This document shows, in pieces, positions 35,802 to 42,230 of a stretch of DNA of 42,230 nucleotides (its first letter is position 1; every line of letters begins with the position of its first letter). Position numbers and translations under genes: made by a program. The notes beneath the pieces are model-generated. The model saw only the letters and a list, made by a program, of their open reading frames with translations, did no database searches and had not been told where the DNA came from. The DNA comes from a virus, in IMG/VR virus record IMGVR_UViG_3300043773_001842, positions 1-42,230 of that record; one strand, written 5' to 3'.

Positions 35802-36857
35802 TCAGGCCAGGATGTCGGTGATCATCGCGCCAGAACCGATGAGACCGGTGGTGCCGAGGCCCACAGGGTGCACAGCACGCTCGACGGTGATCTCAGCGCG
35901 GACCACACGACGCTCGCGGATGTAGTACTCAGGACGAACGGCGGGAGTGCCGGTCAGCTGGTAGGTGTAAGCGAATGCCGGAGTAGCAGCGTTGGCGCCA
36001 CCAGCAGGCATCACGGCATCAGAAGGACCGTTCGGGCTGTAGAACAGCAGGACGCCGTTCTCAGGGAACACGGGCAGCAGCTGACCGTTCTCGGCCAGAT
36101 AACGACCCTCAGCCACACGAATACCGCGCTCCAGGCCGAAGTAGCGAGCAAGCATGTCCACGTCGATCGAGTCGGCGGTGGTGTACTTGATACGCTCAAG
36201 GATGGACTGGTTGGTCAGCAGTTGGTCGAAGATCGCGGTGCCCACGATCATCGAGTTCGGGCGAATACCGATCTGGTAGGAAACGCTACGCTTCAAGGTC
36301 AGCACAGCCTCGATCGGATTCGAAGCGGGGTCACCCCAAGCAGCGGCACCAGCAGCAGCGCCGTAAGCGGTCTGGAACTGGGTGAAGGTTTCGAAGCCGA
36401 GGCCAGTTTGGGAGCCAGGCACGCCGTTGTAAGGCTCGTAAGGGTTGAAGGAACCGGTCACGGTCACCACTTCAGCCACGGTCTTCTCGTAGGCGTTCAT
36501 CAGGCGGGACATTGCGTTGCGAGTTTCAATCGCACGCAGGTCAACCTGGGCAGGACCTTCGCCGGCGTTCTCAATGACTTCTTCCGGCAGTTCCCAAGCC
36601 ACCACTTCCTGTTCCAGGGCGTAGGGCTCGCTGTCGTAACGAGTCTGCACGTACGGAATGTTGGTTCCGTATGCACGACGGAAGTCGTTGATGGCGAACT
36701 GTTCCTTGCCGAAGCGCAGGATACGGCCAGCACGAGTTGGGGTATCCACCACAGGCGCGATGAAGTTCGCGATATTGGTGGAGGGGAGCATGAAACCTTG
36801 TGCAAGCGTCGTCAGAATAGGATCGACGCCCGCATAGGTTTGGGCTAGGTTCATCAT
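35802..36857 (-). CDS. Major capsid protein (HK97-fold type)
   Basis: A 351-residue protein with features of HK97-fold capsid proteins: an N-arm (FIAPVVDTPTRAGRILRFGKEQF), an acidic helix (ELPEEVIENAGEG), a spine-helix region (RLMNAYEKTVAEVV), and the signature block NPIEAVLTLKRSVSYQIGIRPNSMIVG, then ILERIKYT and ARYFGLERGIRVAEGRYL. The beta C-terminus has YYIRERRVVRAEITVERAVHP. Closest in style to lambda E or Mu T type capsids; the exact family is not certain. Upstream are the decoration protein and protease/scaffold, and downstream the tail tube. The ATG lies behind a GGAGTACTCC palindrome, with no Shine-Dalgarno. Codon use is strongly biased, as expected for an abundant product. Confidence 0.85.
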   Translation of the reverse strand: MMNLAQTYAGVDPILTTLAQGFMLPSTNIANFIAPVVDTPTRAGRILRFGKEQFAINDFRRAYGTNIPYVQTRYDSEPYALEQEVVAWELPEEVIENAGEGPAQVDLRAIETRNAMSRLMNAYEKTVAEVVTVTGSFNPYEPYNGVPGSQTGLGFETFTQFQTAYGAAAGAAAWGDPASNPIEAVLTLKRSVSYQIGIRPNSMIVGTAIFDQLLTNQSILERIKYTTADSIDVDMLARYFGLERGIRVAEGRYLAENGQLLPVFPENGVLLFYSPNGPSDAVMPAGGANAATPAFAYTYQLTGTPAVRPEYYIRERRVVRAEITVERAVHPVGLGTTGLIGSGAMITDILA

Positions 36858-36962: not shown

Positions 36963-37391
36963 TCAGCTGAAGGACACTGTCACCATGCGGCGACCACCAA
37001 TGTTGATGATGTCGCGGATGGTGGGCACGGTACCGTCAGCTTGAACAGCGGTGCCAGCAGCGGAAGCCTGACCGATGGCATTTACCAGCAGTGGGCTATT
37101 GTAGGCAATAGGAGCGGAAGCGGGATCCACTTCGATCAGCAGCAGACCGGAGGTAGCCACGGTTGCCAGACGAGGGGAAGCGGGAGCGTCAGCGAACAGG
37201 GGGATGAAGGCTTGGTTCACACCCAGGATTGTGGTGGGAGTTGCGCCTGGCAGGGTGCAGGTGCCCACTTGGGTACCAGCGCTCACAGCACGGAATTCGC
37301 CGATGGCCACAGAAGGATCTGCAGTGAAGGTTTCAGCGAAACGGATGTACTGCTTGCCGTAAGCAGGAGCAGCATTAGTCGATGTAAACAT
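36963..37391 (-). CDS. Capsid decoration/stabilising protein
   Basis: A 142-residue small-residue-rich beta protein. The pattern TILGVNQAFIPLFADAPASPRLATVATSGLLLIEVDPASAPIAYNSPLLVNAIGQAS resembles DUF2190-type or D-like head decoration proteins, in which a G(I/L)LL..E.D strand is followed by G.PL....G.A. The C-terminal NIGGRRMVTVSFS is a plausible last strand. It lies immediately upstream of the capsid gene, where decoration or stabilising genes usually occur. The evidence is pattern and context, without an invariant catalytic feature. Confidence 0.62.
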   Translation of the reverse strand: MFTSTNAAPAYGKQYIRFAETFTADPSVAIGEFRAVSAGTQVGTCTLPGATPTTILGVNQAFIPLFADAPASPRLATVATSGLLLIEVDPASAPIAYNSPLLVNAIGQASAAGTAVQADGTVPTIRDIINIGGRRMVTVSFS

Positions 37392-37456: not shown

Positions 37457-38251
37457 TTAACGGTATTCTATGCGGCAACGACAACGATCGTAGCATCTAC
37501 AACCATGGCCTGGCATTGGCAAAGAGCCCATAGGTTGCCAACCAGCCTTATCGTAGCTGATGCAATCAGGGCATACCCGGGAATCATGCTTGGCAATCCG
37601 ACGCATTTCTTTATGGCCTTCTTGCTTGCGCTTCATGAAAAGCCCAGTATTAAAAAAGCCATATGCAGGAGATACGACATACCGAAGCACACGCCCGAGT
37701 AAAGCGGGCCAATTACGGCCAACTGCGCTTCTTTTTGCCGTTTCAATAGCAGCTTGCTCACCGGGCGATGTATCAAGCCATTGCTCTGGAAACTCGGGGT
37801 CAAGCTCAGTATTTGGAGATAGGATGCTCATGAGAGTTTGTTTTTCCATCTCTTCATTCTCCTCTGCAAAATCAACAGAGTCGTCGTCGTATCTTAATAC
37901 GCCTTCGTCGAGATAATCTTTGGTCTCTTTCAAAAAGACGTTTAAAGGGGGCAGCATATCACCAACAATAGCTGGCCATGCTGTCTCCATTTTTTGTTTA
38001 GGCTGACTGTCGCCTGCACCCAAATAGAGAGCCGCAAGAGCGGAAGTGAGGGTTTTGTCAATCAGAGCACGTTCATACTCCTCAAATTTCATCTGCCGGT
38101 CACGAAGACCTTTGACGATAACTTTAGCCTCAGCTTCCATTCTTTGCTCAAGTTGGCTGAGCTCTGGGAATTGCTTCGCCAGACGCTCAGCTTGCTTGAA
38201 ATAGGTCTCTCTTTGACGGGTGACTAGACCAATCATAGAGAGCGTATCCAT
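37457..38251 (-). CDS. Mu F-like minor head protein
   Basis: A 264-residue protein. The N-terminal half is helical and charged (ETYFKQAERLAKQFPELSQLEQRMEAEAK). The C-terminus carries the characteristic block of the Phage_Mu_F family: HDSRVCPDC, AGWQPMGSLPMPGHGCRCYDRCRCRIEYR, i.e. CxxC plus a GCRCxxRCRC ending that could bind a metal. Mu F is a minor head protein needed for morphogenesis and lies near the portal and protease genes, as here. It is shorter than Mu F (about 430), with the N-terminal region reduced. Its DNA looks more AT-rich than the flanking head genes. Confidence 0.65.
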   Translation of the reverse strand: MDTLSMIGLVTRQRETYFKQAERLAKQFPELSQLEQRMEAEAKVIVKGLRDRQMKFEEYERALIDKTLTSALAALYLGAGDSQPKQKMETAWPAIVGDMLPPLNVFLKETKDYLDEGVLRYDDDSVDFAEENEEMEKQTLMSILSPNTELDPEFPEQWLDTSPGEQAAIETAKRSAVGRNWPALLGRVLRYVVSPAYGFFNTGLFMKRKQEGHKEMRRIAKHDSRVCPDCISYDKAGWQPMGSLPMPGHGCRCYDRCRCRIEYR

Positions 38252-38252
38252 C

Positions 38253-40793
38253 TCAGGAGTACATCGCCTTCTTCAGGGCTTCGACGTAATCCATCTCTCC
38301 ACCGCTCTTCTCCACCATCTGGAGTGCGCGTTGGTGAGGATCGAGGTCGGCCTCCTCCACGAACTTCATGGAACCACCAGCGTACTCGCTGAAGTCCACG
38401 AGGTTGGGCAGGTTGTTGAGGATGCTGAACAGCAGACCAGTGGCGGTCTCACCTTCGGAGAATTCCAGCACACCAAACTCCAGACCTTCGGCGAACTCGA
38501 CGAGTTTACGCTCGGGAATGATGGAGTCCACCATTTGGCCGCGCTCGTACAGACCTTCCACGAAGCTGTGGATCTGCTCACGGCGGTGAGAGATCTGAGC
38601 CTCACGGTACTCCTGCTTGATGCGGGCATTCTCGGCCTTGAGAGCTTGAAGTTCGGCGTAGAACTCGGCGAATTCCATCTCCTCTTTGTCGTCCCCGTCC
38701 TTCTCCTTGTAGGAGCGGGACATCTTCTTGGGCTCCATGTCGCAGAACTCCTCATCCATCTCATCCTCGTCCTCCTTGTAGGTGGAACCGAAGCCGGTCT
38801 TGGTATAAGGATTGTCGTCCTCGTCATGTTCAGCATAGCCAGTGGTGACTCCGGAAGGTCCGGTCTCCTCACCAACTCCACCGTCGTACTCACCGCTGAG
38901 CATGTCCTTCTTGGACTTGGGAACGCCCATCTGACGATTGGCTTCCTCAGAGTGGTCCTCGGCGAAGTGACCCTGCTCCTTCACTTCCTGAGCGCGCTTC
39001 TTCAGAGCGGGAGGAAGTTCACGGTGATCAGCACCACCGGTCACACCAGAAGGACCGGTGATCTCTGCGGGCTCGTCGTCCTCGTCGGAGTCGAAGGCGC
39101 CGGGGGTGAGGGCTTTCTTGCTGGACTTGGGCTCGCCACGGTAGGATTCGCCGTGCTCCTCAGAGAACACGCCACCGGACTTCTTGCTCATTTCGTTCGG
39201 GCCACCCTCGAACTCACCAGACAGGATTTTCTTCTTGCCTTTCTCTGAGTAGACACCTTCCTTACCTGTCACCTCAGCAGGCTGGGGTTCAGCATGATCC
39301 ATCACGGAACCAGGGATGCCGCCGCCATGCGACTTGGGCATCTTCTCGCCGCCTTTGATGTACATCACGCGGGCTTCCTTGGCTCCCTTGACGTTCTTCA
39401 CCTTGGTGGCGAAGATCTCGTCATCGGGCATCTCCTCGGTCTCAGTGGGGACCTTGGTCTCACCGTCAGCACGGCCAGCGGGGTTGCTGCCGGAAGCGGT
39501 CTCTGCATCGTTGACGCCGTAATCCACGTCGTCATCGTACATGTCGTTGTTGTACATTTGGTCGCGACTCATTTCGTCGTACCTTCCTTCATCGTCGGGG
39601 TCAACATAACGACCGGTCTTGCGGCGGTCTTCTTCGATGGCATTGTTTTTGGCGGGAGGACGACCTGCGTCGTGCTGCTCTTTGCCAGTGGAGATCTTGT
39701 CACGACCAAAGGTCGATTTCTCTGGGGTGGTCTTTCCGGTCTTATAGCGATCGGCCTGCTGCTCGCCGCTCTTGGCGGTCTCGTAGCGGTCTTCGCCTAC
39801 GCCACGGCCCTTAGGACCATGACTATCGTAAGAACCACCGCGGTTTTCAGCGTAGTTCACTTTGCCCGGCTCCATGCGGGGATTCCGCATCTTCGGGTTG
39901 TCGGCACTACGCTCTTCGTGATCAGTGTGCATTTCGTCCTCGTCTTCACGATAGACGTTCTCCACCACCTGAGACACTTGACCGTGCTTGGTGCTTTTCC
40001 TTTTACGGCTGATGCCTGCTTCTTCCATGTAATTAAAGTCCTCTTCTGGGAACTGGTCTTCAAGATCCGCAACAGACCGAGCGTTATCCCCACGACGAGG
40101 GCGTTCGGAAAAGTTTGCAGGGTTTGAGGGATTTTCGATTTCAGAGGCGTTTTCCTCTGCCTCAGCGGTCTCCGCGGAGGTGTCCTCCTCCGCCTGCTCT
40201 TCCTGTGTTCCCACAGCGTCCGCGACTGCGGCGCTCATCTCACTCCTAGCGAGGTCGAGTTTCTCTTTGAGCATTTCAAGAGGACTCAAATCACGAATGA
40301 GAGTGGGACCGAGGTCCTTATCAAACACAGCCATCGGGTCAAGTGCTACGGCAAAATCGTAGACTCCGACACGTTGGTCCCACTCGGCGAAGTTGAAAGG
40401 TTCGAGGCCCTTCACAGCTGGTGGAGCGGCACCGAGCAACGCCAGGTGGCGTGCGGTCCACTGACCGGGATGGGGATTGATTTGGGAATCGGGAGAGTAG
40501 AAAGAGATGGAACACTTGCGGTAGTGTCCGTCCTTAACCAGATCCTTGGCGACGTCAGTGAAGGCGACATTCGCGTACAGGTTATCACCCACACGCTCGA
40601 AGCCCTTGATCCACCCGTAGGATGGTAGGCTATCGGAGTCACCCTGATGTCCAAGCACCAAAGGTGCTTCGTGGATCATGGGGTCGTAAGACTTTACGAC
40701 TTCGTCAAGGTCTTTTGCGCTGAAGCTTCGGGCCACACCCTGCGCCGACGTTTGGTCGCCGGCTTTGAAAACGTGGATACGTTTTTGGAACAT
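38253..40793 (-). CDS. Head maturation protease fused to scaffold (Mu I-like)
   Basis: Residues 1-140 match the Mu gpI-type protease pattern: RIHVFKAGDQTSAQG, FSAKDLDEVVKSYDP, APLVLGHQGDSDSLPSYGWIKG, then GHYRKCSISFYSPDS and RHLALLGAAPPAVKGL. H49 and S95/S97 are candidate catalytic residues by analogy with S78-type proteases. Residues about 180-700 are very acidic, polar and repetitive, probably disordered. Residues about 705-760 form a coiled coil (EFYAELQALKAENARIKQEYREAQ) and the C-terminus is a scaffold-like helical end. Mu I is about 360 residues, so the 846 here reflect a very long insert. In Mu the scaffold is also made separately from an internal start, which might happen here. Confidence 0.72.
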   Translation of the reverse strand: MFQKRIHVFKAGDQTSAQGVARSFSAKDLDEVVKSYDPMIHEAPLVLGHQGDSDSLPSYGWIKGFERVGDNLYANVAFTDVAKDLVKDGHYRKCSISFYSPDSQINPHPGQWTARHLALLGAAPPAVKGLEPFNFAEWDQRVGVYDFAVALDPMAVFDKDLGPTLIRDLSPLEMLKEKLDLARSEMSAAVADAVGTQEEQAEEDTSAETAEAEENASEIENPSNPANFSERPRRGDNARSVADLEDQFPEEDFNYMEEAGISRKRKSTKHGQVSQVVENVYREDEDEMHTDHEERSADNPKMRNPRMEPGKVNYAENRGGSYDSHGPKGRGVGEDRYETAKSGEQQADRYKTGKTTPEKSTFGRDKISTGKEQHDAGRPPAKNNAIEEDRRKTGRYVDPDDEGRYDEMSRDQMYNNDMYDDDVDYGVNDAETASGSNPAGRADGETKVPTETEEMPDDEIFATKVKNVKGAKEARVMYIKGGEKMPKSHGGGIPGSVMDHAEPQPAEVTGKEGVYSEKGKKKILSGEFEGGPNEMSKKSGGVFSEEHGESYRGEPKSSKKALTPGAFDSDEDDEPAEITGPSGVTGGADHRELPPALKKRAQEVKEQGHFAEDHSEEANRQMGVPKSKKDMLSGEYDGGVGEETGPSGVTTGYAEHDEDDNPYTKTGFGSTYKEDEDEMDEEFCDMEPKKMSRSYKEKDGDDKEEMEFAEFYAELQALKAENARIKQEYREAQISHRREQIHSFVEGLYERGQMVDSIIPERKLVEFAEGLEFGVLEFSEGETATGLLFSILNNLPNLVDFSEYAGGSMKFVEEADLDPHQRALQMVEKSGGEMDYVEALKKAMYS
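38838..39245 (-). repeat. Degenerate internal repeats in protease/scaffold linker
   Basis: Two pairs of related segments occur in the disordered region: KKKILSGEFEGG (about 518-530) with KSKKDMLSGEYDGG (about 624-638), and EITGPSGVTGGADH (about 574-588) with EETGPSGVTTGYAEH (about 641-655). A weaker third copy is SSKKALTPGAFDSDE. The segments are similar as protein and diverged as DNA. Confidence 0.7.
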
Positions 40794-40875: not shown

Positions 40876-40884
40876 CTTTTACCC
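40876..40884 (-). promoter_or_regulatory. GGGTAAAA junction motif, copy 7 (before protease/scaffold)
   Basis: The coding strand reads GAA-GGG-TAA-AAG-TCC: the portal stop codon is inside the motif, and the ninth base is G instead of C. It is followed by an 85-base leader before ATG 40793. The leader contains GGGGAGT...ACCCCC, a weak hairpin with one bulge. Confidence 0.42.
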
Positions 40885-42230
40885 TTCCTCATCAGCCATT
40901 GTGACGGCCTCATCCTCCGTGATCTCCTCGTCACCAAAAGGTTTTTCGCCATCTTCGGAACCAAAGATCTTATCGTAGAGGTCACCGTCGGCTTCGGGAT
41001 CGTAGGATTCGGGCGCGCCTTCAACTTCAGACTGCGGTGCCGCCGCCTGGAAATCCTCCTCCTCAGCGAGATCAACTTTGAAGTGGTTCGAGATCCACTC
41101 CTTTTTGGGCTTATAGCCGGACTGAATCAGGAGAGACACGTCAGCCATCGTGAGCTGCGACTCCTCGAGTCGGAACTGACGGCTGATCGTCGGCGCCTCA
41201 ACGTTCACACCGAAATTCAGATCGACGATCCAACGGATCAGTGTGTCACTGAGAGTCTGTGAGATGAGCTGTGAGAGTTCCGAAGCGCGGACGACACGTA
41301 CCATGTTCGCCACCTGGGAGGAGGCACGGCTTCCAGCTTCAGCCTCACCCGCCTCGTCCTCACCGCAGATGAGGAGGGAGATCTCCTTGTCGATGTACTC
41401 GATGAGGTTCATGAAGATGTCCGCTGAGCCCGATGGGTTCAGGAACTCCAGCTCGTAACCCTCGGGGAGAATCATCGCCGTTTCCTGACTCAGGTTCGAC
41501 AGGTGATCATAGAGGGTGTCGATTTCAACGTTTGAGGCCGATAGTGGGGCTTTGGCGATCGCCGTCGGTGTGGCGTATCGGTCACCGTACAGCACGTAAG
41601 ATTCAATAGCGCGGCGACGGAACTTAACAATCGGATACAAGATCCTACCGAGGCCTGTTCCATACGGATCACCAGTATGCGAGAGCCAGTAACGCTGGAT
41701 GATGAATTTCCGCGCTGGCAATTCAATACCCTCAAACATGCGGTTGAAGGTCAACACACGCATGGTGAATCCGGTGTCGGCATTCTCCGACTCCTGGAAC
41801 ACGAAGCGGCGCTGGTCACGGATGCGGACGTCGAACGGGATGATGCCCTGCTTCGTCTTCTTCCACATCACCTCACCCACGGAGAAACCGCAGACGAGAG
41901 CTTCACCGAGACCCTTGTAGAGATCATCGACGTCGAGTGAGGATAGAGCCTCCTCAACGTAATCCTTCACGGCGAGATCACCAGGCTTCTCTGATGCTGG
42001 GGTCAGCAACCAATCACGTGCCGTGATCTCCTGCATCAGTTTCATGAACGACGCCTGGACCGACGAGTCCCACAGCAGTCGTTTGTAGATGACGAGGGCG
42101 CGATTGCCACCTTTCTGGATAATGAGGTCGTCGTCGGGACGGACGATGGTGTTGCCCTGTCCCGTGAATGGGGACGAACTCCCGAACATGTAGATGCTCG
42201 AGAGATTGTACGGGTCAGTGGTATATTTTG
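40879..42230 (-). CDS. Portal protein, Mu gp29-like (DUF935), open at right edge
   Basis: This matches the DUF935/Mu gp29 portal family: IQKGGNRALVIYKRLLWDSSV, TARDWLLTPAS, DDLYKGLGEALVCGFSVGEVMWKK, FIIQRYWLSHTGDPYGTGLGRILYPIVKFRRRAIESYVLYGDRYATP, and a late ASSQVANMVRVVRASELSQLISQTLSD. Portals form the dodecameric channel for DNA entry and the base for neck proteins. An ATG lies at 42189, but the frame stays open to base 42230 with protein-like codons (ending YNLSSIY before that Met) and no ribosome site, so the true N-terminus is probably outside the window. The C-terminus is very acidic (EEEDFQAAAPQSEVEGAPES...). At least 449 residues are present. Confidence 0.85.
   Translation of the reverse strand, partial: KYTTDPYNLSSIYMFGSSSPFTGQGNTIVRPDDDLIIQKGGNRALVIYKRLLWDSSVQASFMKLMQEITARDWLLTPASEKPGDLAVKDYVEEALSSLDVDDLYKGLGEALVCGFSVGEVMWKKTKQGIIPFDVRIRDQRRFVFQESENADTGFTMRVLTFNRMFEGIELPARKFIIQRYWLSHTGDPYGTGLGRILYPIVKFRRRAIESYVLYGDRYATPTAIAKAPLSASNVEIDTLYDHLSNLSQETAMILPEGYELEFLNPSGSADIFMNLIEYIDKEISLLICGEDEAGEAEAGSRASSQVANMVRVVRASELSQLISQTLSDTLIRWIVDLNFGVNVEAPTISRQFRLEESQLTMADVSLLIQSGYKPKKEWISNHFKVDLAEEEDFQAAAPQSEVEGAPESYDPEADGDLYDKIFGSEDGEKPFGDEEITEDEAVTMADEEG

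Follow-up and report, generated by a model that had tools for sequence, protein, structure and literature searches.

An enlarged Mu-type protease-scaffold fusion of aquatic viruses and its probable cleavage motif

Results

Layout of the fusion protein

The ORF at 38253-40793 (minus strand, ATG start, 846 aa) of the window, the whole 42,230-nucleotide stretch of viral DNA analyzed here, raises the question of what a head protease fused to a scaffold does with a long insert lying between the two. The original prediction of both functions in one ORF was borne out with these exact coordinates: the N-terminus matches the head maturation protease family phrog_976 in a profile search (E 1.6e-61) and Pfam Mu-like_Pro (PF10123) with 28.2 bits (cut-off 25.2), and a coiled coil is present. 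In an AlphaFold2 model of the 846-aa protein, built on a 42-sequence alignment, residues 1-120 are folded; helices follow at 171-193, at 704-750 (the coiled coil) and from there to the C-terminus. The pLDDT is mostly below 50 across 193-701 apart from short helices, a low confidence that is partly an effect of the shallow alignment, and this agrees with the predicted insert of roughly 500 residues. Charge and hydropathy also predict disorder, over about 181-760, and no ordered domains were found in the insert by AlphaFold2 on the 42-sequence alignment. The description of the insert as acidic holds for its overall pI (4.6 for residues 138-705), but the charge is mixed and acidic only in net terms. 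We conclude that the ORF is a genuine Mu-type protease-scaffold fusion with an enlarged scaffold half (Table 1).

In other phages the scaffold contacts the capsid protein through one end (PMC12749128), and because of this we assign the conserved helical C-terminus of the 846-aa protein as the probable capsid-binding end. Candidate internal ATGs at residues 679, 686 and 691, which could start a protease-free scaffold as in Mu I/Z, are present in 10-12 of 13 relatives together with a Shine-Dalgarno-like sequence. Glu and Asp codons themselves resemble Shine-Dalgarno sequences, and in the wider clade no ATG is kept.

A structure search with the protease domain of the window protein gave T4 gp21 as the best match (Z 7.2 over 105 residues), followed by the pseudorabies (PRV, 6.1) and cytomegalovirus (HCMV, 5.0) proteases; at Z values below 8 chance similarity is possible, yet a single family tops the list. 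A PDB sequence search with the profile of the short family gave no match, and Foldseek against the PDB with the model of a short relative found nothing significant. Residues His-49, Ser-95 and His-116 are invariant in 42 long relatives, as are His-47, Ser-92 and His-113 in 30 short relatives, and with the His-Ser-(His) order kept, His49-Ser95-His116 are the candidate catalytic residues.

Table 1. Positions of the protease-scaffold ORF, its parts and motif copies, and the neighboring genes in the window
Feature	Position	Strand	Basis or remark
Protease-scaffold ORF	38253..40793	-	846 aa, 93.9 kDa, pI 4.7
Prohead protease domain, residues 1-120	40434..40793	-	Profile matches, predicted fold, candidate His49-Ser95-His116
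Disordered net-acidic insert, residues 194-703 (~510 aa)	38685..40214	-	AlphaFold2, charge/hydropathy, dN/dS
Scaffold coiled coil, residues 704-750	38544..38684	-	AlphaFold2
Helical conserved C-terminus, residues 751-846	38256..38543	-	Alignment and AlphaFold2; putative capsid-binding role
Motif copy 1, FAE 135-137, just past protease domain	40383..40391	-	Predicted self-release site
Motif copy 2, FSE 228	40104..40112	-	Motif scan
Motif copy 3, YAE 314	39846..39854	-	Motif scan
Motif copy 4, HAE 500	39288..39296	-	Motif scan
Motif copy 5, YSE 515	39243..39251	-	Motif scan
Motif copy 6, FSE 543	39159..39167	-	Motif scan
Motif copies 7 and 8, FAE 610 and HSE 614	38946..38966	-	Motif scan
Motif copy 9, YAE 653	38829..38837	-	Motif scan
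Motif copies 10 and 11, FAE 708 and YAE 712, coiled-coil start	38652..38672	-	Motif scan
Motif copy 12, FAE 767	38487..38495	-	Motif scan
Motif copy 13, FSE 778	38454..38462	-	Motif scan
Motif copy 14, FSE 801	38385..38393	-	Motif scan
Portal protein, upstream	40879..42189	-	Portal_Mu match
264-aa protein, downstream, putative MuF-like C-terminus	37457..38251	-	phrog_24776 match to C-terminus; Cys/His-rich end
142-aa protein, DUF2190/decoration position	36963..37391	-	RcapMu and KS10 have the same gene order
Major capsid protein, without motif	35802..36857	-	Phage_cap_E; 66% identical to that of S-CBWM1

The surrounding genes keep the order portal, protease-scaffold, decoration and capsid protein, with the MuF-like gene added after the protease. 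The Cys/His-rich C-terminus of the MuF-like protein reads CPDC...HGCRCYDRCRC, and the same protein has an FAE in an acidic loop that is found only in a few close relatives. The decoration-like protein carries QYIR(F/Y)AE near its N-terminus in nearly all of the homologues listed, which could be either a strand of the fold or a site of N-terminal cleavage.

Relatives and selection on the insert

Relatives were gathered from viral contigs, species genomes and named phages, giving 251 nonredundant proteins, 231 of them with a closed 3' end; 229 remained after the shortest were left out. These fall into 157 proteins below 450 aa, 67 of at least 650 aa and 5 between. The claim that the linker more than doubles the usual length stands against the Mu-like relatives (361-423 aa) and the short majority; it holds less well when the comparison is with the closest relatives in culture, S-CBWM1 (480 aa) and S-TIM5 (608 aa), both of intermediate length. 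The long class comprises at least 67 distinct proteins of aquatic viruses (712-1130 aa), all of which retain an insert, and judged from this collection one aquatic lineage has the expanded design as its norm.

Along the insert we obtained dN/dS ratios of 0.07-0.15, against 0.03 in the protease (13 close relatives), values that are approximate because synonymous sites are near saturation; by this measure the insert is under purifying selection in the closest set of relatives. A design common to at least 67 proteins with an insert under such selection is therefore a lineage trait and not a single oddity. Neutral growth of low-complexity sequence through duplicated modules, harmless since the scaffold is discarded, is a very improbable explanation of the insert: the copy number of modules does vary among relatives and near relatives drift in length between 844 and 929 aa, but the low ratios, even with near-saturated synonymous sites, extend over the whole insert, and no long relative has lost it. 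Modules differ between relatives, an ERxAADR helix module being present in 22 of the 67 long ones. An EF-hand-like calcium-binding loop (DKNKNGKIDGED) lies in the insert of three relatives only (L022 at residue 365; L025 and L032 at residue 345).

The internal repeats reported for the insert are present but minor. LSGE(F/Y)xGG occurs at residues 524-531 and 632-639 and TGPSGVT at 579-585 and 644-650, a two-copy local duplication, and the best ungapped self-match of the protein scores 60, where the 95th percentile of shuffles is 57. At the DNA level no significant tandem array was found in the ORF. With two copies only, and present in 12 but missing from 55 of the 67 long relatives, LSGE(F/Y) was ruled out as a cleavage repeat.

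A recurring tripeptide motif

The statistically dominant repeat of the protein, though overlooked in the original prediction, is the tripeptide [FYH][AS]E, present in 14 copies against 1.5 expected; none of 2000 composition-preserving shuffles reached 14. The suggestion that the insert is cleaved at repeated sites thus fits a repeated motif, but a different one from LSGE(Y/F). In the scaffold halves of the 157 short and the 67 long nonredundant relatives the observed/expected ratio is 8.9 and 8.5, respectively, and that of the reversed tripeptide 0.7 and 1.1. Because the sequences are related, these pooled ratios overstate independence, and the weight lies in the recurrence at many sites per protein. 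About 165 short relatives have F-small-E/D/A sites at seven homologous places, the first immediately after the protease domain, and none of 42 long relatives departs from the Phe and Glu of copy 1. Mapped onto the model of a short relative, most sites fall within or border on low-confidence joints between helices (121-145, 196-214, 291-294 and 319-340), and one of the seven (258) is inside a confident helix. Column by column, motif residues in the insert are no more conserved than neighboring residues, and conservation of this kind was set aside as a proof of the motif.

The cleavage motif of T4 gp21 is L/I-X-E. This generic T4 motif, [LI]xE, was rejected as the repeat, as was [AS]xE, since both are at expectation in the 846-aa protein. 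Capsid proteins contain 6 copies of [FYH][AS]E against 65 expected, as would be the case if the capsid protein is a non-substrate; because permutations of the tripeptide range from 0.4 to 1.2, this depletion is supporting only. The start of Mu T is confirmed by protein sequencing. That head proteins avoid the motif in general was discarded as a rule, as it holds for capsid proteins but not for Mu-like portals. The tripeptide is also conserved as a single copy in Mu-like portals, in the decoration-like protein and, among short relatives, within the protease domain; it is therefore insufficient alone for cutting, and exposure must matter. Taken together, the recurrence of the motif and the analogy with other head proteases suggest that [FYH][AS]E is probably the site where the protease cuts the scaffold.

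Does the motif follow the protease or the capsid protein?

A motif repeated along a disordered chain would also suit multivalent binding, with [FYH][AS]E as a docking motif through which the scaffold holds the capsid protein at many points and the insert spacing these stickers. We regard this as unlikely. Copy 1 sits at the boundary of the protease domain, where no docking is needed, and the motif changes between phages more in line with the protease than with the capsid protein. In Lsp-JY19, a Leptolyngbya phage, FAA stands at most of the corresponding places; its capsid protein is 73% identical to that of phiSHP3 and its protease 55%, and the motifs are different. Conversely, phiSHP3 and B3 share the same motif with proteases that are 63% identical and capsid proteins that are only 27% identical. 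In the scaffold half of Mu, [FYH][AS]E is absent and LSA occurs six times against 0.2 expected, several of these copies at corresponding places. In partial Mantel tests over 88 representatives, the motif correlated with the protease given the capsid protein at 0.29 (p 0.006) and, more weakly, with the capsid protein given the protease at 0.16 (p 0.003), the latter in the direction that docking would require. The two correlations together with the phage pairs make it more probable that the motif is read by the protease, and less probable that it is read by the capsid protein, in a comparison that rests on few independent motif switches; as far as these sequences go, the motif tracks the protease better than it tracks the capsid protein.

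In phiSHP3 (L047:3480-5057) the annotated 525-aa "protease" continues into DUF2190/decoration-like sequence, and an internal start is annotated as scaffold; this ORF may be a gene fusion, a frameshift or an annotation error.

Discussion

A probable disposable core within one polypeptide

On the evidence of the motif, the structural model and the analogy with known phages, we think it likely that [FYH][AS]E marks the sites at which this protease cuts and that the insert serves as a disposable head core of enlarged size, comparable with that of T4, within a Mu-type fusion. The head proteases of T4, phiKZ, 201phi2-1 and SPN3US all cleave after Glu (PMC5694885, PMC10052503). That of SPN3US acts at A-X-E sites and trims its own C-terminus, and several SPN3US propeptides have extra sites, which the authors suggest yield smaller and more easily cleared fragments (PMC5694885, PMC10052503). 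In T4, gp22, gp67 and gp68 are reduced to small peptides by gp21 (PMC9958956).

By analogy, each copy of the window protein would build part of the inner core of the prohead, with the coiled coil and helical C-terminus oligomerizing and contacting the capsid protein, as other phages suggest, and with the insert occupying the interior. On completion of the prohead, the protease would cleave the polypeptide it is part of, each time behind the Glu of a (Phe/Tyr/His)-(Ala/Ser)-Glu motif. The first cut would presumably be the self-release at residue 137, and later cuts would reduce the insert and C-terminus to peptides of about 4-186 residues. These small acidic peptides might then leave or stay, and space would be freed for the DNA.

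Length of the insert and size of the head

It is also conceivable, if rather unlikely, that the insert is mainly a ruler or volume filler for a larger capsid and cleavage is incidental, an explanation compatible with self-cleavage. Protein length does rise loosely with genome size, from ~370 aa at 33-40 kb (Mu-like) through 480-608 aa at 139-172 kb (S-CBWM1, S-TIM5 and Nodularia phages) to roughly 850 aa on contigs that measure 190-279 kb and are not necessarily whole genomes. However, on the two longest contigs (277 and 279 kb) the protein does not exceed the length of versions on fragments of tens of kb, phages of 139 kb carry versions of both 480 and 570 aa, and the sizes are those of contigs, the window included, and not necessarily of full genomes. 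From the 66% identity between the capsid proteins of the window and S-CBWM1 it follows that a similar shell protein works with a scaffold ~365 residues shorter. Four contigs of 190-279 kb with the long version (L217, L251, L225 and L223) suggest that the lineage has jumbo-size members.

Returning to the disposable core, a wider picture is possible but doubtful, namely that one widespread aquatic lineage has a T4-style disposable core in a single self-digesting polypeptide (protease, long disordered acidic filler and capsid-binding end), with the motif changing together at all sites as the protease evolves and the length of the filler tuned to larger heads. A motif predicted from sequence, with apparent lineage-specific codes across hundreds of phages, makes it testable in laboratory phages such as Mu and B3 what the head protease recognizes and how this coevolves with the scaffold, and in the enlarged version a single gene would serve for relating the size of a disposable core to the size of the capsid.

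Comparison with known systems

In Mu, gpI/gpZ likewise place protease and scaffold in one reading frame and repeat a short motif at corresponding places, but the protein has 361 aa and no insert, the motif is LSA, and the scaffold is also made from an annotated internal start. We found no cleavage motif described for the Mu-type protease-scaffold family in the open-access literature; subscription papers on Mu head assembly may describe one. The S-CBWM1 protease shares the homologous protease domain, acidic linker, coiled coil and C-terminus and has six copies of the motif, whereas its insert is shorter by the difference given above, Glu-rich and without the modules of the window protein. The S-TIM5 protease has the same architecture and ten copies, but its linker is Glu/Lys-rich with DHAE/DHSE copies, and it is 38% identical over 31% of the query.

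The SPN3US and phiKZ proteases resemble what is predicted for the window protein in cutting after Glu, in C-terminal self-cleavage and in several sites per propeptide (PMC5694885, PMC10052503), but they use another motif, act on many head proteins and have no comparable fused scaffold described there. With the T4 core (gp21; gp22, gp67 and gp68) the window protein would share a protease of the T4/herpes fold and, as a prediction, cleavage after Glu and reduction of the core to small peptides; in contrast, the T4 components are separate genes, and T4 trims its capsid protein, whereas the capsid protein of the window has no motif. By this analogy, the enlarged Mu-type fusion is probably a self-digesting protease-scaffold that works like the T4 core.
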